In this document: positions 9,964 to 26,094 of the stretch, in pieces
Layout: each line of letters starts with the position of its first letter
Position numbering within the stretch: position 1 is the first letter of the stretch
DNA from: Nitrospiria bacterium
GTDB lineage: Bacteria > Nitrospirota > UBA9217
Direction of reading: 5' to 3'
NCBI GenBank assembly: GCA_919902495.1
Contig: CAKKRC010000047.1
Span: 1 to 40,218, forward strand
Length of the DNA stretch: 40,218 nucleotides
Position numbers and translations under genes: made by a program
Notes under the pieces: generated by a model
What the model was told of the DNA's origin: nothing
What the model saw: the letters and a program-made list of their open reading frames with translations, nothing else
Databases searched by the model: none

Positions 9964-10542
9964 ATGAGAATGATAACGAAATTTACTTTGATGTTGGTAC
10001 TGTTGCTCCTGGCATCGCCGGTCCTGCTGCTTCCGGGCTGCGGCGGAGAGGATGTGGCCAAGAGCCAGGGTTGTCCTTCAGGATCATATCTGTCGAACGT
10101 GTCAGATTCGATCGCGGGCTCAGCAGATGTTACGTTTGATCAGGCATCTTCTTTCGGATCGCCATTCCCGGGAGGAACGATACTGTTTTCCCCAGTAGTG
10201 TTCACCATAGTAGACATTGGTCAATTTCCCAGGAACAATGTCTGCCTCATTGTTTATACAGACGGCTTCTGGTATACAGATGCTACCTATTCGACCGTTA
10301 TTACCGGTGTCGGTCCGATGAATGCCCGCGCTGTTGTAACGAATGACACCGGTATGGCTGTTCTCTACTGGTCCACCGAGCTCCTGCCCGCGGCGAACCC
10401 GGTGACCATCGCGGCAGGACCGCCGGTATCTTATACTCCCGGGGCCGACCAGACGGGACAATCGTGGATCTCGGTATACTCCGGGGCGAGTTTGGATGAG
10501 TATCATGTTGACTGGACGGTCAATGGAGAGCCGGGGCCTTAG
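9964..10542 (+). CDS. Unrecognised secreted lipoprotein
   Basis: The 192-aa protein has a clear lipoprotein signal: basic MRMITK, a Leu-rich core, then LLPGC. The mature part is acidic and rich in Ser, Thr, Gly, Val and Tyr with alternating hydrophobic residues, suggesting a beta-sandwich. I recognise no family. GGAGG (9953-9957) precedes ATG 9964, 25 bases after pilQ, and a terminator follows, so it is probably the last gene of the pil transcript. A role at the cell surface next to the secretin is possible but is only positional inference. Confidence 0.7.
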   Translation: MRMITKFTLMLVLLLLASPVLLLPGCGGEDVAKSQGCPSGSYLSNVSDSIAGSADVTFDQASSFGSPFPGGTILFSPVVFTIVDIGQFPRNNVCLIVYTDGFWYTDATYSTVITGVGPMNARAVVTNDTGMAVLYWSTELLPAANPVTIAAGPPVSYTPGADQTGQSWISVYSGASLDEYHVDWTVNGEPGP

Positions 10543-10697: not shown

Positions 10698-10828
10698 ATT
10701 TCTTGTTATGAGGCGCGAGTTGGTTCGGATCGTTCCTGATCGCGTTCAGCTCGGTTCCGAATGATGTGACCGATCGATCCCCCCGTCATCATGGCCACAT
10801 CGCGTGCCAAGGCAGTGAGGAGGTCAGT

Positions 10829-12481
10829 ATGAATAGAATATTCATTATTCCGGTGCTTCTTATCTGCTCCGTGTTCCTATTCAGTTGCAGTCCCGTGGAT
10901 TTTAACGGTCTCGGAGCAGGCGGCGGAACCACGACTACGTCCACAGCAACCCTTGTCCCGGCTTCGATAACCACCAGCGCAGACGGAGCCGTATCGGTCG
11001 CCATGGTCCTCCAGTCGAAGGAACTCTTGACGACCAGCACGAACCTGTTCAAGAACCTCGGCTTCATCGCCCAGTCGAACATGGTGTCGGCGGCCAGCGG
11101 CACCGGCACAGGAACCTGCACCGATTACGGAACGTATGATTATACCCGCTCGTACAGCGGCGGGTCTTATGTTCTGATCTATTCTTTCAAATTGTGCAGA
11201 GAGAATGATTTCCAGTACGACGGCACGTACGTGGCAATGGGAACTCCGGCCTCATTTACGGGCAGATTGTCCGGCTTGACGATCCTGAATTTCAAGAACA
11301 ATTATACGACGCTCATCGGCTCCTTGGTGGGTACAAGCGTGTCCTATGTAATGACCGGTTCCGGCGATGCCGCGAACGCACTATATATTTTTACCGCCAA
11401 TGGCGGCATTTCCGGGTTTGATTACTATACCCTCGGACAGCACGATATGATGTTCACCGCGCTGGTCACCAATTATACGGTCTCTACCGACGCCGGGAAC
11501 ACTGTCCGGGACACCGCCATGACGACGAATGGCAGGTATTCGGTCAGGCGCTTGGCCGCGACGACCGCGATCACTTACGTGGGCTTTACCGTCAACACGC
11601 AGAAACAGTTGCTGACCAATATCGAAGATGTCACTATCGGAGGCAGGATCTCCGCCGACCGCACACCCACTGCCGGCTTCGAGGGTGTCTTCGATATTGC
11701 GACGCCGACCCCCATACGTACCGTGCTGGTCCCGTATCCGCCGAAAACAACACAGGGTACGGTGGTCACCAACAGCAGCGCTACGGTGCAATATGGCAAT
11801 CCGGACTCAATAATTGTCAGCGTCGGGACCGATACGCCGCAGGCCTTTGCAAAAGAGTTCATGCTCCTGAAACAGGCTGATTTCTACGCCATGGAGCAGC
11901 AGTTGCCGATCGTTTCCGGTGCGACCGGGACCGCAACAGGCACGGTTATGTCCCTGTCGGCCCTTTCCTCGGGGCCGTCGTCGGCCGCGCTGGACTGCTA
12001 CACCGATGTCCATGTGAGCTATTTTCTTTCGACAGCTCCAACGGCCACCATCCCGAACTGGTATGTCCACTGGGACTCGAACTTGAACACCTGTGCGGCC
12101 CAGGCGGGCATCCCGTTCCAGGAGGCAACGAGCAGCACCGGCATCGCGACGGACCCCTGCGATGTGGGGCTGGACATCAACGGAGCGTCCAAGGATATCG
12201 CATCGGGCGGTGTGGAGCATTTTCTGGCGGCGGCGCTTCCGCAGGGGTACTATGTCCTGTCTATCAATAATTACAGCTGCGCGACGGCGACAATTGGGAA
12301 CGCGGCAACCGTAATGATCGGCGACTATCTTTTTGGTCCCTATACATGCAGTTATACGGCGCTTGACGGCGATAATTTCACACCCGGAGCGTGGTGCCGT
12401 CTTGCCGATGTCCGGGTGAACGCCAGCGGCGTCATCGACGTGCTTGCGCCGAACGGCGCGATCCCGCCGTGGCATCCGTAG
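10829..12481 (+). CDS. Unrecognised large secreted lipoprotein
   Basis: The 550-aa protein starts at ATG 10829, 5 bases after GAGGAGG (10817-10823); an upstream in-frame start (10766) has no ribosome site and would put 21 residues before the signal peptide. The signal is MNRIFIIPVLLICSVFLFSC, with the lipid-attached Cys last. The mature protein is rich in Thr, Ser, Ala, Gly and Tyr. It contains scattered Cys residues (CTDYGTYDY, FKLCREND, CYTDVHVSYF, NTCAAQAG, DPCDVG, NYSCATAT, GPYTCSYT) that may form disulfides. It has no catalytic motif or known family that I can name. The second half (from about residue 390) looks like a separate Cys-containing beta domain. It is monocistronic, flanked by its own promoter candidate and a strong terminator. 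Confidence 0.72.
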   Translation: MNRIFIIPVLLICSVFLFSCSPVDFNGLGAGGGTTTTSTATLVPASITTSADGAVSVAMVLQSKELLTTSTNLFKNLGFIAQSNMVSAASGTGTGTCTDYGTYDYTRSYSGGSYVLIYSFKLCRENDFQYDGTYVAMGTPASFTGRLSGLTILNFKNNYTTLIGSLVGTSVSYVMTGSGDAANALYIFTANGGISGFDYYTLGQHDMMFTALVTNYTVSTDAGNTVRDTAMTTNGRYSVRRLAATTAITYVGFTVNTQKQLLTNIEDVTIGGRISADRTPTAGFEGVFDIATPTPIRTVLVPYPPKTTQGTVVTNSSATVQYGNPDSIIVSVGTDTPQAFAKEFMLLKQADFYAMEQQLPIVSGATGTATGTVMSLSALSSGPSSAALDCYTDVHVSYFLSTAPTATIPNWYVHWDSNLNTCAAQAGIPFQEATSSTGIATDPCDVGLDINGASKDIASGGVEHFLAAALPQGYYVLSINNYSCATATIGNAATVMIGDYLFGPYTCSYTALDGDNFTPGAWCRLADVRVNASGVIDVLAPNGAIPPWHP

Positions 12482-12523
12482 CGAAGGCCATTGCCGCTTA
12501 TCAATCCTGATTGCAACAGAGCT

Positions 12524-12554
12524 CAGATGCGCCCCCCGGGGCGCATCTGTGTTT
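12524..12554 (+). terminator. Strong terminator after the 550-aa lipoprotein gene
   Basis: An 11-bp GC-rich perfect stem (12524-12534 with 12539-12549) has a 4-nt loop and is followed by TGTTTT. Its position shows that the following HEAT-like gene must start downstream of it. Confidence 0.88.
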
Positions 12555-12570
12555 TCCGCAAATGCAAGCC

Positions 12571-13257
12571 ATGCCAGATACCAAGAAAACCATGAGAACG
12601 TTCCTGGAGAAAAACGAACTTGTACAGGTCGTCGCGCTCATACGCGATGAACGGCGGCACCTGTCCGCTCTGGTACGCCTTGCCTACGACAAAGAAACGC
12701 TCGCTGGCTGGAGGGCCATCAGGGCCATCGGGATGGCGGCGCGCGAGATGCTGGCAACGGACCTCGATGCTCTGCGCGAGACCTGCCGGAAACTTATCTG
12801 GTCCCTGTCGGACGAGTCAGGCGGGATCGGGTGGTCGGCGCCTGAGATCCTCGGCGAGATCGTGAGCGCTGACCCAAAGCGCTTTAAGGACTTCATCCCG
12901 CTTATCGCGTCGGTCTATGAGATCGAGGAGGACGTGTTCCGGGGAGGGGTGCTCTATGCCCTCGGCAGGATCGCCGGCCCGGCGCCGGAACTGGCGGCAC
13001 CCTACCAGAAGATCGTCATTGCATCGCTTTCCGACAGGGATCCGCTCGTGAAGGTCCGCGGCCTTGAACTGGTCGGCCTGCTCTGGTCCTACGGTAAGCG
13101 TTCTTCTGTCTGGGGCCGGGAATATGGCGAACGGATCATCACTGCCGTTCAAAACCTGCGAATAGACAAGGGCGAGGCCTGGATCTATCGAGGGGATAAC
13201 TTTACCTCGGTATCCGTTGGTGAAGAGGCGCATAGCTGCTTAAATAAGCTTATTTAA
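12571..13257 (+). CDS. HEAT-repeat-like protein of unknown function
   Basis: The 228-aa protein (from ATG 12571) is almost wholly alpha-helical, with repeated pairs of amphipathic helices such as LSALVRLAYDKETLAGWRA, FKDFIPLIASVYEIEEDVF and GVLYALGRIAGPAPELAAPY. This is the pattern of HEAT/PBS-lyase-like scaffold repeats, roughly five units. Such proteins usually mediate protein-protein contacts; no catalytic residues are evident. The start is uncertain: ATG 12562, 12571 and 12592 are in frame and none has a good ribosome site, but starts upstream of the terminator at 12524-12554 are excluded. The gene ends 87 bases before dnaJ, with a strong promoter between, so the two are separately transcribed. 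Confidence 0.7.
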   Translation: MPDTKKTMRTFLEKNELVQVVALIRDERRHLSALVRLAYDKETLAGWRAIRAIGMAAREMLATDLDALRETCRKLIWSLSDESGGIGWSAPEILGEIVSADPKRFKDFIPLIASVYEIEEDVFRGGVLYALGRIAGPAPELAAPYQKIVIASLSDRDPLVKVRGLELVGLLWSYGKRSSVWGREYGERIITAVQNLRIDKGEAWIYRGDNFTSVSVGEEAHSCLNKLI

Positions 13258-17714: not shown

Positions 17715-17741
17715 TTGAAAACAATTAATCTGTGCTATAAT
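17715..17741 (+). promoter_or_regulatory. Extended -10 promoter of the GGDEF gene
   Basis: TGC followed by TATAAT (17736-17741) is an extended -10 box; TTGAAA at 17715-17720 is a short-spaced (15 bp) -35. An in-frame ATG at 17740 overlaps the -10 box, so it cannot be the start of the gene if this promoter is used. Confidence 0.7.
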
Positions 17742-17790
17742 GAGTTCCGTTCAAAGGATGCGGCAACGTCATAAGTATCTGAGGCTGTTC

Positions 17791-18999
17791 ATGCCCGGGA
17801 AAAAAAAGAGCTCGTCCAACATACGGAAGCCGGCGAAAACGAAGAAAAAAACGCCGAAGACCGCGCCGCGCAAAAAGAAGCCTGCCGCATCGGTGAAGGC
17901 AGCGGCAAAACGCGATTACAAGGCGCTCTTTCACCGGAAGCTGACCGAGAACCACCTGTTCTATGAGGTGGGGAGGATCATCGCATCAGAGACCGAACCC
18001 TTCGATCTCATCAAAAAGATCGTCGCTGTCATCAACAAGGAAGTTCCCTTCGAAGACGCCACCGTGTACACCGTTAAAAAGGACATGACCGGCCTCGAAC
18101 CGTTCTACTACGGCGGACCCTTATTCAAGAATGCTACCCTCGACACCATCTACTACGACATCGGAGCGCCGGGCAACATTGCGGCAACGGGAGAAGCTAT
18201 CTTCATGCAGGACGCAGCCCTCTACGAGGGTTTCCTGCAGTATCCCGAGGAGCAGCGCAAACCGGGAAGCTACGTGGGCATCGCCCTCAAGAACGAAAGC
18301 CGGGTCATCGGCGTCATGGGATTCAGCCACAGCGACCCCGGGGCATTCCGGGTGGAGGACCTTGATACGATCCGAACGCTGTCTCCGCTCATCTCCGCGG
18401 GGTTCGAAAAGGCGGAGCTCTTCCGGAAGACGCTGGAGCTTTCCCGCGTGGACGAGCTCACCGGCCTCCTGAACTACCGCGTTCTGATGGAAAAGCTGGC
18501 CGAGGAAGTGCGAAGGAAGATACGTACAAGCAGGGAATTCGCCTTCGTCATGATCGACATAGACGACTTCAAGCGGGTCAACGACCGGTACGGCCATCTC
18601 GAGGGGAGCAGGTTGATCGCCCAGATGGGGCCGCTGCTCAGGACCGCGTGCCGCACCGACAGCACCGACATCTGCTTCCGCTACGGCGGAGAGGAATTCT
18701 CGATCCTGCTCACCGAGACCACGATGGAGGAGGCCCGGGCCGTTGCGGAACGCCTTCGTCAGTCGGTCGATGAGTATCCGTTCACGGTCAAGGTGAACCA
18801 CCCTCAGGAGACGATAACCATCAGCCTCGGGGTCTCCAGCATGGCGGGCGACAAGCAGAAGTCCATTACAGAACTGATCAACGAGGCGGACATCGCCCTG
18901 TACCACGCCAAAGCGGCCGGCAAGAACCGGGTGATCTGCTATAGTGAAGGCTGCGGGATGCCCGCCGCGAGCAGTGCGGAGCGCAAGGGGCTGCCCTAG
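17791..18999 (+). CDS. GAF-GGDEF diguanylate cyclase
   Basis: The 402-aa protein starts at ATG 17791, 6 bases after GAGG (17781-17784). Residues 1-45 are a Lys/Ala/Pro-rich, histone-tail-like basic segment. A GAF-type sensor domain follows (about 55-215), then a GGDEF domain (about 222-390) with DELTGLLNYR, DIDDFKRVNDRYGH and the active-site GGEEF (299-303). It should make cyclic di-GMP from two GTP. The inhibitory I-site RxxD is not intact: the Asp is present (293) but the Arg position is Asp (290), so product inhibition may be absent. It has its own extended -10 promoter. No membrane segment is seen, so it is probably cytoplasmic. The basic tail could bind nucleic acid or acidic surfaces, but this is speculation. 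Confidence 0.9.
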   Translation: MPGKKKSSSNIRKPAKTKKKTPKTAPRKKKPAASVKAAAKRDYKALFHRKLTENHLFYEVGRIIASETEPFDLIKKIVAVINKEVPFEDATVYTVKKDMTGLEPFYYGGPLFKNATLDTIYYDIGAPGNIAATGEAIFMQDAALYEGFLQYPEEQRKPGSYVGIALKNESRVIGVMGFSHSDPGAFRVEDLDTIRTLSPLISAGFEKAELFRKTLELSRVDELTGLLNYRVLMEKLAEEVRRKIRTSREFAFVMIDIDDFKRVNDRYGHLEGSRLIAQMGPLLRTACRTDSTDICFRYGGEEFSILLTETTMEEARAVAERLRQSVDEYPFTVKVNHPQETITISLGVSSMAGDKQKSITELINEADIALYHAKAAGKNRVICYSEGCGMPAASSAERKGLP

Positions 19000-19209: not shown

Positions 19210-19238
19210 ATCATACCCGACCTCGGTGACCGATGCAA
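19210..19238 (-). promoter_or_regulatory. Promoter of the 59-aa gene
   Basis: On the minus strand: TTGCAT (19238-19233), 17-bp spacer, TATGAT (19215-19210). It is placed 27 bases before the start codon. Confidence 0.65.
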
Positions 19239-19269
19239 CTACGCGGGACCTGCTTGCAAGCAAAGGCCC

Positions 19270-19298
19270 TTTACTTTTTATCGCCGATGACCGATAAT
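19270..19298 (+). promoter_or_regulatory. Promoter candidate of the PEPCK gene
   Basis: TTTACT (19270-19275), 17-bp spacer, GATAAT (19293-19298), in the divergent gap shared with the 59-aa gene. Confidence 0.55.
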
Positions 19299-19349
19299 AT
19301 CGCTCACGAAAAAAAGTGGCGGGAGCCGCATGCAACAAGGAGAGCAGAG

Positions 19350-21134
19350 ATGACGAATGGGTCCCGGAACGATAAGTTGAATGCGTGGGTGAAGGAGGCC
19401 GCCGATCTGTGCAGGCCCGATGCGATCCAGTGGTGCGACGGATCAAGGGCCGAGTACGACCGGATGATGGCACTGCTCAAGGAGCGCGGTATGGCGGTCC
19501 CGCTCGCCAAGCGGCCGAACAGCTTTCTCTTCCGCACCGATCCCAGCGACGTGGCCCGCGTGGAGGACCGCACGTACATCAGCACGCGTTCGCAGGAGGA
19601 CGCGGGCCCCACGAACAACTGGGTACTCCCTGATGATCTCAAGAGGACCATGCGGGGTCTGTACGACGGCTGCATGAAGGGCCGGACGATGTATGTCATC
19701 CCCTTTTCCATGGGGCCCGTCGGCTCGCCGATCTCGAAGATCGGTGTTGAGCTTACGGACAGCCCCTATGTGGTCTGCAACATGCACATCATGACCCGGG
19801 TCGGCACGTCGGTAATGGAGGCGCTCGGCCCGACGGGCGGGTTCATCCCCTGCCTGCATTCCATAGGCGCACCTCTCGAGAAAGGCCAGAAGGACGCGCT
19901 CTGGCCCTGCGCGCCGATCGAGAAGAAGTACATCAGTCATTTCCCCGAGGAGAACCTGATCTGGTCCTATGGCTCGGGCTATGGCGGCAACGCCCTGCTC
20001 GGAAAAAAATGCTTTGCGCTCCGGATAGCCACGAACATGGCGCGAAGGGAAGGCTGGATGGCCGAGCACATGCTGATCATGCGGCTTACCAATCCTGAAG
20101 GGAAGCGCTTCCATATCGCCGCAGCGTTCCCGTCCGCTTGCGGCAAGACAAACCTCGCCATGATGCAGCCCTCGATCAAGGGCTGGAAGTGCGAATGCAT
20201 CGGCGACGACATCGCGTGGATGAAGGTCCGGGGCGACGGCAGGCTTCACGCCATCAATCCGGAGAGCGGCTTCTTCGGCGTCGCGCCCGGCACTTCGTAT
20301 GACACCAATCCCATGGCCATGGACACGCTGAAGGAGAACATTATCTTCACGAACTGCGCGTTAACAGACGATGGCGACGTATGGTGGGAGGGGATGGCAG
20401 ACGCTCCGCCTCACGCCATCGACTGGAAGGGCAGGGACTGGACCCCGGCAAGCCGCGAGGACGCGGCCCATCCCAACGCTCGCTTTACCGCGCCGGCAGC
20501 GCAGTGCCCGGTCATCTGCCCGGACTGGGAGGACCCAGAGGGCGTTCCCATCGATATCTTCATCTTCGGCGGCAGGCGGAGCAGCGCTGTGCCGCTCGTG
20601 ACCGAGGCCTTTTCATGGGACCACGGCGTGTTCATGGGCGCGACAGCGGCTTCGGAGACCACCTCGGCGAACATCGGCGCCGTCGGCAATCTGCGGCGTG
20701 ACCCTTTTGCCATGAAGCCTTTTCTCGGCTACCACATGGGCGACTATTTCCAGCACTGGCTTGCCATGGGCGACCGGCTGGGGACGAAGGCGCCGCGCAT
20801 CTTCTACGTCAACTGGTTCCGGAAGAGCGCGGAAGGCAAGTTCCTCTGGCCGGGATTCAGCGACAACAGCCGGGCGCTCAAGTGGATGTGCGAGCGCGTT
20901 GACGGCACGGTCGGCGCCCGGGAAACGCCGATCGGACTGATGCCCAGGGACGGCGACCTGGACCTCTCCGGCCTCGACATCGCGAAGGATAACATGAAGG
21001 CGCTCATGGATGTGGACCTCAAGGAGTGGAAGGCAGAGGTCCCGGACATCGAGAAGCACTTTGCGCTCTTCGGCGACCGTCTGCCTGCCCGGCTCAGGAA
21101 GCAGCTTGAGGAGATGAAGAAGCGGCTGGGATAA
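19350..21134 (+). CDS. pckG: Phosphoenolpyruvate carboxykinase, GTP-dependent
   Basis: The 594-aa enzyme converts oxaloacetate plus GTP to PEP, CO2 and GDP, the entry step of gluconeogenesis from C4 acids. The kinase P-loop FPSACGKTN lies at 260-268. Other GTP-PEPCK hallmarks are [11 protein letters not shown], the GDDIAWM metal segment, FGVAPGTS and the [11 protein letters not shown] loop. The length fits the GTP family (about 600) rather than the ATP family (about 530). ATG 19350 is chosen because AAGGAGAG (19337-19344) precedes it; upstream in-frame starts lie in the promoter. It is monocistronic. It complements malic enzyme, fumarase and FBP aldolase/phosphatase encoded nearby. Confidence 0.96.
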
Positions 21135-21171: not shown

Positions 21172-21210
21172 CAATGCCCTGGTTCTTCATGGAATGAGGG
21201 CATTGTTGTT
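21172..21210 (+). terminator. Possible terminator after PEPCK
   Basis: A 9-bp stem pairs 21172-21180 with 21197-21205 around a 16-nt loop, followed by TTGTTAT. The large loop lowers confidence. Confidence 0.5.
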
Positions 21211-21392
21211 ATCAGGCGCGCTGCGATCCATCTGACGGGAATGCAGTTAAATCTCATAACCATACTGCAGCCACGCGGTGATGTCTTCGGTGTTGATAGG
21301 GAGTCCTTTGATCATCCGGATCTGAAAGTGAACGTGCGACAGTATGGAACTGACCGTAATGATTCTACCTATATCAGTTTTGAGCGGGGAAT

Positions 21393-22913
21393 GTGAAGAT
21401 AAGACGGAAGGTTGAAAAAGCGGAAATCGTGCTTATCCAGCCGGTCACCGGGCCGTGGGATGAGATGTCCATTCGTTTCCCCGAATCGCTCCTCGCAGTG
21501 GCTGCCTTGCCTGTCTCAAAGGGATATCGCGTCAAACTTATAGACCGCCGCGTTATCAGCAATTTCCGACAGGAGTTGGCGGACGCCGTGGGCCCCGAAA
21601 CGGTGGTCTTCGGGGTGACCGCCATTACGGGGGAACAGATCGGACACGCGCTGAAAACGATTGATTACCTGAAAGAGCACTACCCGCATGTCCCGGTTTG
21701 CGTCGGCGGAGTTCATGCGACACTTCTTCCGGAGCAGACCGCCGCCCACCCGCATATTGATTATGTGGTCGTCGGAGACGGCGATATCGTTTTCTGCGCG
21801 CTCTTCGAACGCCTGCGGGACCGACGGCCTGTTGACGATCTGGAGGGCATTGTTTACAAGACGCCTTCCGGAACGATACGATCGAATCCAAACAAGGTCA
21901 TCCTCGATCTCGACGCCCTACCGCCGCTTCCGTACGAATTGATCGACCTTGATAACTACGGTGTTTTCCATGCGTCTGCCGGATCACGATCTGCAACACT
22001 CCATACGTCCCGAGGCTGTCCCTATCGCTGTAAATTCTGTTCTGGTCCGGTCATCAATCACGGTGTTTGGCGCGGGTTATCGGCTGAGCGCGTCCTTGAA
22101 AAGGTCGATCTGTTGTATGCGAAATACGGCTATGGGCTGATCTACTTTCAAGATGACTACTTTCCCGGATCAAAGAAGAGATTCATCGAGATCCTTCGCG
22201 GGTTAAAACGCTATAACCGAAAGTTGCTCTGGTCAACGCTGGGTATTAGGGCTGACATTCTCTCCGAGTTAAATGATGAGGAATGGGAACTCCTGCATGA
22301 TTCGGGGTGCCATTCGCTCGAGATAGGAATTGAATCGGGGAACGAACGCATCATTCGGTATATCAATAAGGGAGAGACCCTCGAACAGATGCGGACGGTC
22401 AACCAGAGGCTTGCACGGTACAACATAAAGGTCAAATATACCCTGATCATCGGATTTCCCGGTGAAACCAAGGAGGAAATCGCAGACACGGTCCAGTTCG
22501 CTTCTGAGCTTGAGGAAAGCAATCCTCATGCATACTGTCTCATTTTCAACTTTTTACCGATAATCGGAACACCTTTTTATAACGAAGCGTTGGCGCATGG
22601 ATTTACCGCGCCAGCATCATTGGAAGCCTGGGCAAATATGGACTTTGACGGTTGGATGAACAAATATACATACATGCACGCTCGCCGATTCGTACGAAAG
22701 CTGGAGCTTATTACGTTTGCATCATATTTTCACAATCAGAATGTGTATTACAAGTTCAGCGGGTCACATTTGCTCCGTCTCTGCTTCAAGTTGTATCATC
22801 CGATCGCCCGCTGGCGATTCAAACACCGATATTTCGGCTGTCCATTCGAGCTCTATTTAAAAAACTGGTTGTTAAAGATCAGATACGGGGCTATGATCAT
22901 TTCCAACAATTGA
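21393..22913 (+). CDS. B12-binding-domain radical SAM protein
   Basis: The 506-aa protein has an N-terminal cobalamin-binding-type Rossmann domain (about 1-140, with VVFGVTAITGEQ, VCVGGVHATLLPEQ and DYVVVGDGD). A radical SAM barrel follows, with the cluster motif CPYRCKFC (Cys 209, 213, 216), then the GIESGNERIIRYINKG segment and a helical C-terminal part. The B12 domain lacks DxHxxG, as is common in this class. Members act in methylation and in hopanoid, bacteriochlorophyll or lipid modification; the substrate cannot be read here. The start is GTG 21393; GCGGGGA precedes it closely, so the exact start is uncertain. Base composition and codon use look more A/T-rich than in its neighbours, which may mean acquisition by transfer. 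Confidence 0.85.
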   Translation: MKIRRKVEKAEIVLIQPVTGPWDEMSIRFPESLLAVAALPVSKGYRVKLIDRRVISNFRQELADAVGPETVVFGVTAITGEQIGHALKTIDYLKEHYPHVPVCVGGVHATLLPEQTAAHPHIDYVVVGDGDIVFCALFERLRDRRPVDDLEGIVYKTPSGTIRSNPNKVILDLDALPPLPYELIDLDNYGVFHASAGSRSATLHTSRGCPYRCKFCSGPVINHGVWRGLSAERVLEKVDLLYAKYGYGLIYFQDDYFPGSKKRFIEILRGLKRYNRKLLWSTLGIRADILSELNDEEWELLHDSGCHSLEIGIESGNERIIRYINKGETLEQMRTVNQRLARYNIKVKYTLIIGFPGETKEEIADTVQFASELEESNPHAYCLIFNFLPIIGTPFYNEALAHGFTAPASLEAWANMDFDGWMNKYTYMHARRFVRKLELITFASYFHNQNVYYKFSGSHLLRLCFKLYHPIARWRFKHRYFGCPFELYLKNWLLKIRYGAMIISNN

Positions 22914-23021: not shown

Positions 23022-24749
23022 ATGAGTAAAACGCATTCACATCAGACCGCGCTTGTGAACGTCCTGGGCGTCGTCTACCTTCATAAGAGGACCGTGGACG
23101 GCGGCGACCTGTATCTCACCCGGTTCGCCGAACCGCACCAGGAGCACCTCGAGATACAGAACTGGTACGAAGAGAGCTGGTTCGTGAAGCATCGCGTGCG
23201 CCTTCTGGGCACGAGCTCGGTCTACCGCGTCCCGACGCGGCGCATCGGCGGCACCAGTCTCGACCTGGTGGTCAAGCACAACCGTGTCGGCGAGGACGTT
23301 CCGCTGAACACCCACACGCTGCAGGAATTCCTGAGCGCCGAGTTCAACAGCCCCTGGGAGGAGTTCGCCCTGGTGATGGAAATGGGCGACAAGCATTTCG
23401 GACAGATGCTCCAGTGGATCAAGGTGCAGAGGCCCCTGGCGATCTACGTTCCGCCCCAGCGGATGCAGGCGTGGCAAAGCGGCCGGTCGCGCGCCAAGAT
23501 CAACCGCATCCAGGCGCGCCATCCGGGCGTCGACCTCGACATCCTGAAGCAGTATAAGCTGGTCTACGAATGGATCCGGGGCAAGAACCTTGTCGAGCTC
23601 TTCGAGCAGATCAAGGTGGAGATGCCCGACCTCATCCACCACCTGACAGCGATGCAGAAGAAGGCCCTCGACGATCTCACCGTCAAGGGATATCTCATGG
23701 CGGACATGAAGCCCGAGCACGTCATCATCGAGGAGCACGACTGCGACCGTATCGAGCAATTTGGCGGGAACGGAGATGCAAACGCGGCGGCGAAGCAGGT
23801 GGACCTGCTCTATCACCTGCTGGAGGTGGGGAAGTACTCGGTGATAGACTACGAGCTGCTCTTCCGGACGCCGGAGCACGAGGACCGGGTCAAGGCGACG
23901 CGGCGGATCTGTTATCTTGACGATCAGAAGTGCCGCCTCGAACCGACGCCGCTGCCGCCCCACCTGTCCCGCACGGAGATCTTCGGCGTTCCCTATGTCT
24001 TCGGACGCGCGGAAAGCACGGGCGGCCGCATGTGGGTCGTGGGACGGAACGCGCGCCTCTTCGATTATTTTCTTCCCGAGCGATGGCGGAAGACGCCCTC
24101 CCTGAGCCTGTCGGCCGACAACGAGGTATTTTACACGGTCACCAAGGACAACATTCATCTGGTCTGGGAAACGTCCCGCGTGGGCGAGTTCCCGACGGAC
24201 AGCAAGTTCAGCCCCGAAGAGGTCGCGAAGATCAGGCGCAACGGCATCAACAGTCCCTTCGAGGAGTTTGCCATTTCCCAGGACTTGAACAGCCGCGGCA
24301 TCCATGCCGTCTATGTGCGCGCCATCTATGTGACGGGCAGCCTGAAGGTCGAGATGTCGGTCGATCCCCGCCGCTATCAGTCCCACCGGACGATCGTCGA
24401 TATCGACGGCGATCCCGTACTCGCGCCGGAGCATAACTACATCACCCTGCGGGGATACTATAATGGGCCGGATGATTGGGTGCCTGAGCACGAGGACAAG
24501 CTGCTCACCCCGGTCGATCTTGCCAAGGCCGTCCGCAAAGGCATTATCAATGCGGTGCAGGGAAAAACCTATCTGGACCGTGTCATCGCACGGCTTCTGG
24601 ATGCTGGCTACGACGGTTCGCTCCTGAAGAAGAACGACCTTCTCCTGGCGATGAACTCCCGGGGCGAGGTCGTGAAGGACCGCTCCGGCGAGCCCGATAT
24701 CATCATCTGCAACTTCGAGACCTTGTGGAAGCTTCCCGGAACTGCCTGA
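23022..24749 (+). CDS. Tandem atypical kinase-like protein (kinase plus degenerate second copy)
   Basis: I know no named family for this 575-aa protein. The first half has a kinase-like layout: GTSSVYRV (about 63-70), a beta-3-like Lys in LVVKHNRVGE (K85), a hinge-like YKLVYEWIRGKNL (178-190), a catalytic loop MADMKPEHVII (226-236, D228, K230) and a DFG-like VIDYELL (274-280, D276). The second half repeats this order in degraded form: LVWETSRVGE (380-389) aligns with the Lys motif but has E383 for K85; NSPFEEF (410-416) aligns with NSPWEEF (109-115); GYDGSLLKKND (529-539) aligns with the catalytic loop with Leu for D228; and IICNFETLWKLP replaces the DFG-like motif with Asn. It looks like an active-type domain fused to a pseudokinase made by duplication. 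ATG 23022 follows AAGG and is preferred over the upstream frame start at 22986. No membrane segment is seen. The alignment was made by eye. Confidence 0.7.
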   Translation: MSKTHSHQTALVNVLGVVYLHKRTVDGGDLYLTRFAEPHQEHLEIQNWYEESWFVKHRVRLLGTSSVYRVPTRRIGGTSLDLVVKHNRVGEDVPLNTHTLQEFLSAEFNSPWEEFALVMEMGDKHFGQMLQWIKVQRPLAIYVPPQRMQAWQSGRSRAKINRIQARHPGVDLDILKQYKLVYEWIRGKNLVELFEQIKVEMPDLIHHLTAMQKKALDDLTVKGYLMADMKPEHVIIEEHDCDRIEQFGGNGDANAAAKQVDLLYHLLEVGKYSVIDYELLFRTPEHEDRVKATRRICYLDDQKCRLEPTPLPPHLSRTEIFGVPYVFGRAESTGGRMWVVGRNARLFDYFLPERWRKTPSLSLSADNEVFYTVTKDNIHLVWETSRVGEFPTDSKFSPEEVAKIRRNGINSPFEEFAISQDLNSRGIHAVYVRAIYVTGSLKVEMSVDPRRYQSHRTIVDIDGDPVLAPEHNYITLRGYYNGPDDWVPEHEDKLLTPVDLAKAVRKGIINAVQGKTYLDRVIARLLDAGYDGSLLKKNDLLLAMNSRGEVVKDRSGEPDIIICNFETLWKLPGTA

Positions 24750-24903
24750 CGGCCGATCACGCACCACCCTTGCAGCGTATCCCTCATTGATACCACCACA
24801 CGGAGCGGCCCCCGGATCGCCAGCGCTTCGCGCCGCCCAGCCCCCGATCGATCAACGCGGTTTCACACACTTATTCCCATAAGCTGCAGAACAGCCGCAA
24901 CGG

Positions 24904-24978: not shown

Positions 24979-26094
24979 ATGAAGATCACGATGAGCGTCA
25001 TAAAGGCTGATATCGGTTCCGTGGGAGGGCACATCGCACCCTCGGAAAAATTGCTGGAGACCGTCCGGAAGCACGTGCAGGACAAGGGGCGAGGCATGCT
25101 GATCGACAGCTACGTGAGCTCTACCGGAGATGACGTGGCCATCCTGATGACCCACACCGGAGGCGTGGACAACGCACCGGTGCACAAGCTTGCCTGGGAG
25201 GCGTTCCTTGCCGGTACCGCGGTGGCCAAGGCCCAGGGCCTCTACGGAGCGGGACAGGACCTGTTGAAGGACGCCTTCTCCGGCAACGTCCATGGCATGG
25301 GGCCCGCGGTCACGGAGATGGAGTTCGAGGAGCGGCCGGGCGAGCCGTTCCTGTTCTTTGCCGCGGACAAGACCGATCCCGGCGCCTACAATCTGCCGCT
25401 CTACCTCGCCTTCGGCGACGCCATGAACACGCCGGGACTCATGCTATCACCCAAGATGGCAAAGGGCTTCAAGTTCGTGATCATGGACGTGAACCACACC
25501 GAGGGCGACCGGATCATCGAGCTTTCCGCGCCCGAGGACCTCTACGACATTGCCACGCTGCTCCGGGACCCGGAGCGCTTCGTCGTGGAGTCGGTCTGGT
25601 CGCGTGCGGCGGGGACCCAGGCGGTCTCCGTGGCGACCTCGCGGCTGCACAACATCGCGGGAAAATATACCGGTAAGGACGATCCGGTCATGCTCGTCCG
25701 CAGCCAGATGGACTTCCCGGCAACGGGCGAGGTACTGCAGCCTTTCGCCATCGGCCACTTTGTCGCCGGGTGCATGCGGGGATCGCACAATATGCCGATC
25801 ATGCCGGTCAAGCTGAATTCCACGATCAGCTACTTCGACGGACCGCCGGTCGTGAGCTGCGCGACGTTCTGCATACGCGACGGCAGGCTGACTGGCCCGG
25901 TGGACGCATTCGACCATCCGTTCTGGGACCGGGTGCGCGACCATGTCGCGGACAAGGCCATGGACATGCGGCGGCAGGGATTCTTCGGAGCGGCCATGCT
26001 GCCCATGAACGAGCTGGAATACACGGGCATCATGGAGAAGCTTGCGGTTCTCGAGCAGAAGTTCGCGGTGAGGACGATGAAGCGGGCGGCATGA
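24979..26094 (+). CDS. fbp: Fructose-1,6-bisphosphate aldolase/phosphatase (bifunctional)
   Basis: The 371-aa protein is the archaeal/deep-branching-bacterial type V enzyme. It condenses triose phosphates and dephosphorylates the product to fructose 6-phosphate, making gluconeogenesis one-way. Family hallmarks are the N-terminal SVIKADIGSVGGH, DSYVSSTGDDVAILMTHT, GAGQDLLKDAFSGNVHGMGP, FFAADKTDPGAYNLPLYLAF and the Asp/His-rich metal-binding residues of the Mg sites. The length matches the usual 360-400. AAAGGAGG (24966-24973) precedes ATG 24979. Its presence points to an anaerobic, possibly autotrophic or thermophile-related lineage. It is followed by a convergent CBS-ACT gene and a shared hairpin. 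Confidence 0.96.
   Translation: MKITMSVIKADIGSVGGHIAPSEKLLETVRKHVQDKGRGMLIDSYVSSTGDDVAILMTHTGGVDNAPVHKLAWEAFLAGTAVAKAQGLYGAGQDLLKDAFSGNVHGMGPAVTEMEFEERPGEPFLFFAADKTDPGAYNLPLYLAFGDAMNTPGLMLSPKMAKGFKFVIMDVNHTEGDRIIELSAPEDLYDIATLLRDPERFVVESVWSRAAGTQAVSVATSRLHNIAGKYTGKDDPVMLVRSQMDFPATGEVLQPFAIGHFVAGCMRGSHNMPIMPVKLNSTISYFDGPPVVSCATFCIRDGRLTGPVDAFDHPFWDRVRDHVADKAMDMRRQGFFGAAMLPMNELEYTGIMEKLAVLEQKFAVRTMKRAA

Follow-up and report, generated by a model that had tools for sequence, protein, structure and literature searches.

Protein K, the 575-residue product of an open reading frame at 23022-24749 on the forward strand, is a tandem of two kinase-like units in which the first keeps all the catalytic residues and the second has lost both the catalytic and the DFG-type Asp, and its gene is linked to, and co-occurs with, that of the GTP-dependent PEP carboxykinase (PEPCK). 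K represents a new protein family that combines a known kinase fold with an unusual tandem layout, and profile comparison of its halves indicates that it was made by an ancient internal duplication. We tentatively favour a role for K as a kinase-pseudokinase regulator of the PEP/oxaloacetate node, most likely one that phosphorylates GTP-PEPCK. The window referred to below is the whole stretch of DNA that was analysed, 40,218 nucleotides from a Nitrospiria bacterium (contig CAKKRC010000047.1).

Protein K and its relatives

The translation of K (23022..24749, +) contains every residue named in the original prediction, which was made from this DNA alone (K85, D228-M-K-P-E-H and D276-Y-E in the first half, E383, a Leu and an Asn in the second), and the RVGE, NSPxEEF and GY...K landmarks said to be common to both halves are seen in both. 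The gene is present once in the source genome. An antisense frame of 576 aa opposite K (23037-24767, -) was rejected as a gene, as mirror frames of this kind are typical of coding DNA rich in GC.

Full-length relatives, 56-92% identical to K, are found in Nitrospirota MAGs, and 53 further homologues could be aligned. Two peptide patterns, scanned once against 84,980 species genomes, returned relatives only from records titled Nitrospirae, Nitrospirota, Nitrospiria or Thermodesulfovibrionales; beyond the reach of these two patterns, more distant relatives may exist in other phyla. No match to K was obtained by tblastn against phage and plasmid collections, and the 15 pattern matches in viral contigs included no true relative. 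Our searches of Nitrospirota likewise showed no unduplicated, single-copy relative. They did include a distant subfamily, which belongs to one family of another class (loci L130 and L131).

Internal duplication

The internal duplication originally proposed for K is borne out by profile-profile comparison of its halves with hhalign. With 53 homologue rows, copy 1 and copy 2 align over 213 columns with a score of 82.8 (Prob 97.3, E 1.8e-11), against a maximum of 26.6 in shuffled controls. With 39 homologues the score is 57 (Prob 94, E 1.4e-7), the maximum of 20 controls with columns shuffled or reversed being 27.1. At this smaller sampling the N-lobe part alone is significant (52.5 vs 20.1 for controls) and the C-lobe part alone is not (12.9 vs a shuffled mean of 14.3). 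Duplication of the C-lobe passed only once the distant subfamily and further relatives had joined the alignment, the C-lobe alone then scoring 29.4 vs 20.5 over the 53 rows, with the catalytic loops in register. In that register ADMKPEHVII of copy 1 lies opposite GSLLKKNDLLLA, and at the catalytic-loop position the distant subfamily reads D-N-K-A-H-H in copy 1 and N-L-R-G-N-H in copy 2. A HMMER profile of copy 1 also picks up the second copy within several homologues (E 3.1e-5 at best, also 1.4e-4 and 1.8e-4).

As the repeat starts near residue 12 in copy 1 and near residue 318 in copy 2, K consists of two copies placed end to end that cover the whole protein. The boundaries given earlier (50-290 and 355-575) therefore captured the repeat itself but misplaced its starts. 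Copy 1, the kinase-like unit with all catalytic residues, is delimited here as residues 8-305 (23043..23936, +) on the basis of hhalign, the NCBIfam Bud32 and PrkT matches and the AlphaFold2 elements described below; copy 2, the pseudokinase-type repeat, as residues 306-573 (23937..24740, +) on the basis of hhalign, the copy-1 HMM matches and its AlphaFold2 model.

Catalytic residues of copy 1

K85, E107, E113, E114, D228, K230, H233, D276 and E278 are invariant in all 54 aligned sequences, so that conservation of the three residues on which the original prediction hinged (K85, D228 and D276) holds throughout the homologues surveyed. K85 (23274..23276, +), in strand 81-88 of the model, corresponds to the β-3 lysine, and E113-E114 (23358..23363, +), within NSP[WF]EEF and helix 111-123 of the model, provides the candidate α-C glutamate. 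Residues 144-176 (23451..23549, +; MQxWQSGRS...HPG..LDILK) form a highly conserved, family-specific insert between β-4 and β-5, a block that classical kinases appear to lack. The catalytic loop, D228-M-K-P-E-H233 (23703..23720, +), aligns on D-L-K-P-E-N, with the invariant His233 in place of the usual Asn; the His-Arg before the catalytic Asp is absent in most members. The DFG-type metal-binding motif, D276-Y-E (23847..23855, +), reads D[YF]E rather than DFG.

In ePKs the activation segment and helices F-I follow DFG. From D276 to the start of copy 2 there are only ~41 residues, with one predicted helix (284-301), and these elements are therefore missing from copy 1. Judged by its residues and its kinase kinship, copy 1 is an active-type kinase unit.

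A disarmed but maintained second copy

The copy-2 position of the catalytic Asp, placed by the hhalign register at L534 (24621..24623, +), is L in 40 sequences, S in 11 and N in 2, with one gap, and is never D. That of the DFG-type Asp, N564 (24711..24713, +), is N in 52 and K in 1, again with one gap and never D, and copy 2 ends ~11 residues further on. The position of the β-3 Lys, E383 (24168..24170, +), is more variable (E 31, K 20, R 2 and V 1 of 54), and of the losses originally listed for copy 2 those of the two Asp are thus consistent, whereas that of the Lys is not fixed. The LFDxFLPERW and TKDN blocks hardly vary among homologues, which argues for a maintained pseudokinase domain and not a decaying one; the term 'degenerate' first applied to copy 2 suits its catalytic residues but not the domain as a whole. 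With homology to a kinase-like copy 1 and loss of both Asp, copy 2 would be classed as a pseudokinase, and residue conservation and profile-profile comparison together support the earlier reading of K as a duplication that yielded an active-type kinase and a pseudokinase.

The same residues bear on whether K catalyses any reaction. If catalysis were lost in both halves, K would bind a nucleotide or metabolite and regulate PEPCK through binding alone, as might be read from His233 in place of the metal-binding Asn and from a copy 2 that is disarmed yet conserved. We regard this as quite improbable, given that K85, D228, K230 and D276 are invariant in 54/54 sequences, the distant subfamily included, which binding alone would not need.

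Kinase kinship from profiles and models

The earlier statement that K matches no named family stands, since no curated kinase family is matched above its cut-off and there is no Pkinase match in K. Kinship with kinases is supported by profile matches of copy 1 to Bud32 and PrkT and by structural matches of the full-length model. The best curated match of copy 1 is to Bud32 (NCBIfam NF011464), with E 6.4e-5 in one homologue and 7/39 members matching, at 22.8 bits against a cut-off of 246; PrkT is matched by 8/39 members (best E 0.0019), at best with 17.2 bits against a cut-off of 280. ABC1/UbiB (PF03109) is the Pfam family matched by most members (9/39, best E 0.033), the window's K scoring 11 bits where the gathering score is 22.9, and AceK and DUF299 in Pfam gave no match to K at E up to 1. 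A profile search of the PDB sets D228-M-K-P-E-H against D-L-K-P-E-N, the corresponding loop in twitchin and S6 kinase, with E values of 0.03-0.2 that fall short of significance; copy 2 as a sequence query against the PDB gave no match. A match to the defence kinase PD-T4-6 (E 0.014) was dismissed as a generic kinase loop.

AlphaFold2 models of full-length K (pLDDT 69.6, pTM 0.57) and of copy 2 alone (pLDDT 76.3, pTM 0.77) predict the same, kinase-like order of secondary-structure elements in both halves, in line with the likeness originally expected of them. When the full-length model is compared with the PDB by Foldseek, every one of the best 50 matches is a protein kinase (lowest E 4.7e-4), with probabilities mostly of 0.9-1 and TM of only ~0.3. 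Copy 2 alone matches kinases weakly, with no E below 0.001 and with PknA, PRPK/Bud32 and IRE1 near the top, and its assignment to the kinase fold therefore draws mainly on homology to copy 1. The low TM and the only moderate quality of the full-length model could be taken to mean that the resemblance is due to chance and that K has an unrelated fold, but kinase signals of independent origin point to the same residues, which makes this very improbable indeed.

The likeness to Bud32 does raise a different reading of the catalytic unit, namely that K is an ATPase with a kinase fold, or a modifier that does not transfer phosphate (comparable to Bud32 or UbiB, or acting as an AMPylase or glutamylase), and that it serves to assemble, stabilise or modify PEPCK. 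The minimal C-lobe of K is closer to Bud32 than to ePKs, PRPK (human Bud32) ranks third among the structural matches of copy 2, and the catalytic-loop Asn is uniformly His. We consider this reading rather unlikely, as all phosphotransfer residues other than that Asn are kept in 54/54 sequences, and the distribution of PEPCK described below also stands against it.

Linkage to PEP carboxykinase

The conserved partner of K is the gene for GTP-dependent PEPCK (19233..21134, +; PF00821 E 2.3e-169; 794 bits to GTP-PEPCK 4r43), a genomic link that the original prediction had missed and that is the new element here. In most loci, that of the closest relative (L070) included, clustering of neighbouring ORFs places GTP-PEPCK directly upstream of K on the same strand. 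In 28/38 loci K follows PEPCK on that strand with a gap of -8 to ~200 nt, and PEPCK lies within 5.5 kb of K in 36/38. The pair is kept, though unlinked, in a one-contig genome (G386).

In the window, and in this genome only, the two genes are separated by one for a B12-binding radical SAM protein (21393-22913, +), HpnJ-like at a score far below cut-off. Its low GC content (0.505 vs 0.61; GC3 0.59 vs 0.82) and the lack of a relative in any locus searched make it look like a recent insertion. A hairpin at 21172-21215 (AATGCCCT...AGGGCATT, followed by a T-rich stretch) was noticed by eye just 3' of PEPCK and is absent from the terminator scan; because of it, transcription of PEPCK and K as one unit may have ceased in this genome.

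In six genomes of the family to which the window belongs, K is followed directly by a gene for an FBPase_3-family fructose-1,6-bisphosphatase (24979..26094, +, in the window; PF01950 E 1.1e-160). Upstream of PEPCK lies a gene for a GAF-GGDEF diguanylate cyclase (17740-18999, +) which is kept in four loci, so that ClpB, GGDEF, PEPCK, K and FBPase make up a partly conserved block. Elsewhere in the window, between pilus genes and dnaJ, three ORFs on the forward strand (10766-12481, 12511-13257 and 9964-10542; 571, 248 and 192 aa) have no Pfam match.

No linkage to PEPCK is seen in the distant subfamily, which weighs against the role for K that we favour. In both of its genomes K is divergent from an ACT-domain malic enzyme (L130:1632-3038 and L131:7082-8488, both -). 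With a TauE-family exporter on the other side, this arrangement is seen in two genera.

Co-occurrence and the PEPCK tree

Among 296 genomes sampled from the phylum, 39 have both PEPCK and K, 9 PEPCK only, none K only and 248 neither; among 230 genomes of one class the corresponding numbers are 70, 20, 5 and 135. PEPCK thus accompanies K in 39/39 and 70/75 of K-bearing genomes, respectively, and three of the five K-only genomes of the class are 66-78% complete. Fisher tests that ignore shared ancestry give p values of 2e-40 for the phylum sample and 3e-34 for the class. The 20 genomes of the class with PEPCK and without K imply that PEPCK can work in the absence of K, and the PEPCK of other organisms is not known to need such a helper; both count against K as an assembly, stabilising or modifying factor, and the 20 genomes weigh against the favoured regulatory role as well.

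K maps to one clade of the PEPCK tree (support 98), in which 38/40 members have K and two losses are seen; the 7 other PEPCKs, from two other lineages, are all from genomes without it. The two clade members lacking K are L077 (G273) and L076 (G233). No branch of the clade is longer than that of the L077 PEPCK (0.31), which was perhaps relaxed after K was lost. The idea that a PEPCK phospho-site would be marked by change in both of these members was rejected: 0 columns conserved in K-bearing PEPCKs are changed in both.

Proposed function of K

The linkage of K to PEPCK indicates a shared process, not a substrate. The suggestion that K is a dedicated regulator draws on this linkage and on co-occurrence, and on analogy with AceK and PSRP. 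In such a scheme copy 1 would bind ATP-Mg through K85/E114/D276, with D228 as the catalytic base, and copy 2, having lost the catalytic and metal Asp, would serve as a regulatory or docking module. K would phosphorylate GTP-PEPCK in response to a metabolite or partner signal sensed by copy 2, and this phosphorylation would decide how gluconeogenesis and the C4 pool are balanced. Members of the distant subfamily would have another enzyme of the PEP/oxaloacetate node as their target, and the malic enzyme beside distant K, which is such an enzyme, counts in favour of a regulator of the node.

Protein kinases bind their substrates at the activation segment and helices F-I. With no room for these elements in copy 1, phosphorylation of a protein is not the sole option. 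K might instead be a small-molecule kinase (aminoglycoside- or choline-kinase-like) whose substrate is a metabolite close to PEP, oxaloacetate or malate. A neighbourhood of PEPCK, FBPase and malic enzyme would suit such a kinase, and D-Y/F-E for DFG together with a short C-lobe resembles small-molecule kinases; no curated small-molecule kinase family is matched, however, Foldseek returns protein kinases and not APH or choline kinases, and a retained disarmed copy would fit regulation better. Nor is any step of this pathway known to be short of a kinase, and we consider such an activity unlikely.

If K is the regulatory kinase that we favour, substrate docking and sensing may be supplied by copy 2 and the β-4/β-5 insert. 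It is possible, rather than probable, that K represents the first regulatory kinase dedicated to a bacterial PEPCK, an active kinase-pseudokinase tandem and a separate invention of the AceK/PSRP type; as each unit is without the substrate-binding subdomains of ePKs, recognition would then fall to the disarmed twin and the insert.

PEPCK stands at a central branch point in carbon metabolism. In the relevant passages of a review on how PEPCK is regulated, phosphorylation is cited for plants and no kinase of the bacterial enzyme is named (PMC10441589), and we found no dedicated kinase for bacterial PEPCK in the open-access literature. K is a concrete kinase candidate with a testable PEPCK partner, and it comes from anaerobic Nitrospirota for which metagenomes are the main source of knowledge. 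It is also a compact natural case of a kinase that duplicated and disarmed one copy in a single chain, some members still carrying the β-3 Lys in the disarmed copy. Tandem, fused or duplicated arrangements did not turn up in a 2025 review of bacterial pseudokinase families (PMC12599244).

Comparison with known systems

Bud32/PRPK resembles K most closely in its profile match to copy 1 and its small C-lobe, and is among the top structural matches of copy 2. K differs from it in being a tandem, in having His for Asn in the loop and in carrying the β-4/β-5 insert; moreover, Bud32 is a single short domain with KEOPS partners, whereas K is linked to PEPCK/FBPase or malic enzyme and not to tRNA modification genes. 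For ABC1/UbiB/COQ8, the difference lies in context, no membrane or quinone setting having been seen for K.

AceK and PSRP/PDRP (DUF299) are analogues in the way they work. AceK carries a motif of the D-Y-D-E type where DFG would be, and its regulatory half is a different one, not a duplicated kinase. It controls one branch-point enzyme, as the dedicated kinase of isocitrate dehydrogenase (PMC6591243), a target that sets it apart from K, as does the lack of an AceK Pfam match in K. PSRP/PDRP is not of this kinase fold. In bacteria it is a regulatory kinase dedicated to PEP synthetase, an enzyme that forms PEP in gluconeogenesis (PMC2817694), and it differs from K, which has no DUF299 Pfam match.

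The eukaryotic JAKs, too, combine an active-type kinase domain with a disarmed one in a single chain. There the pseudokinase comes first and both halves are full ePK domains, so that the domain order is the reverse of that in K, with which JAKs share no sequence match.
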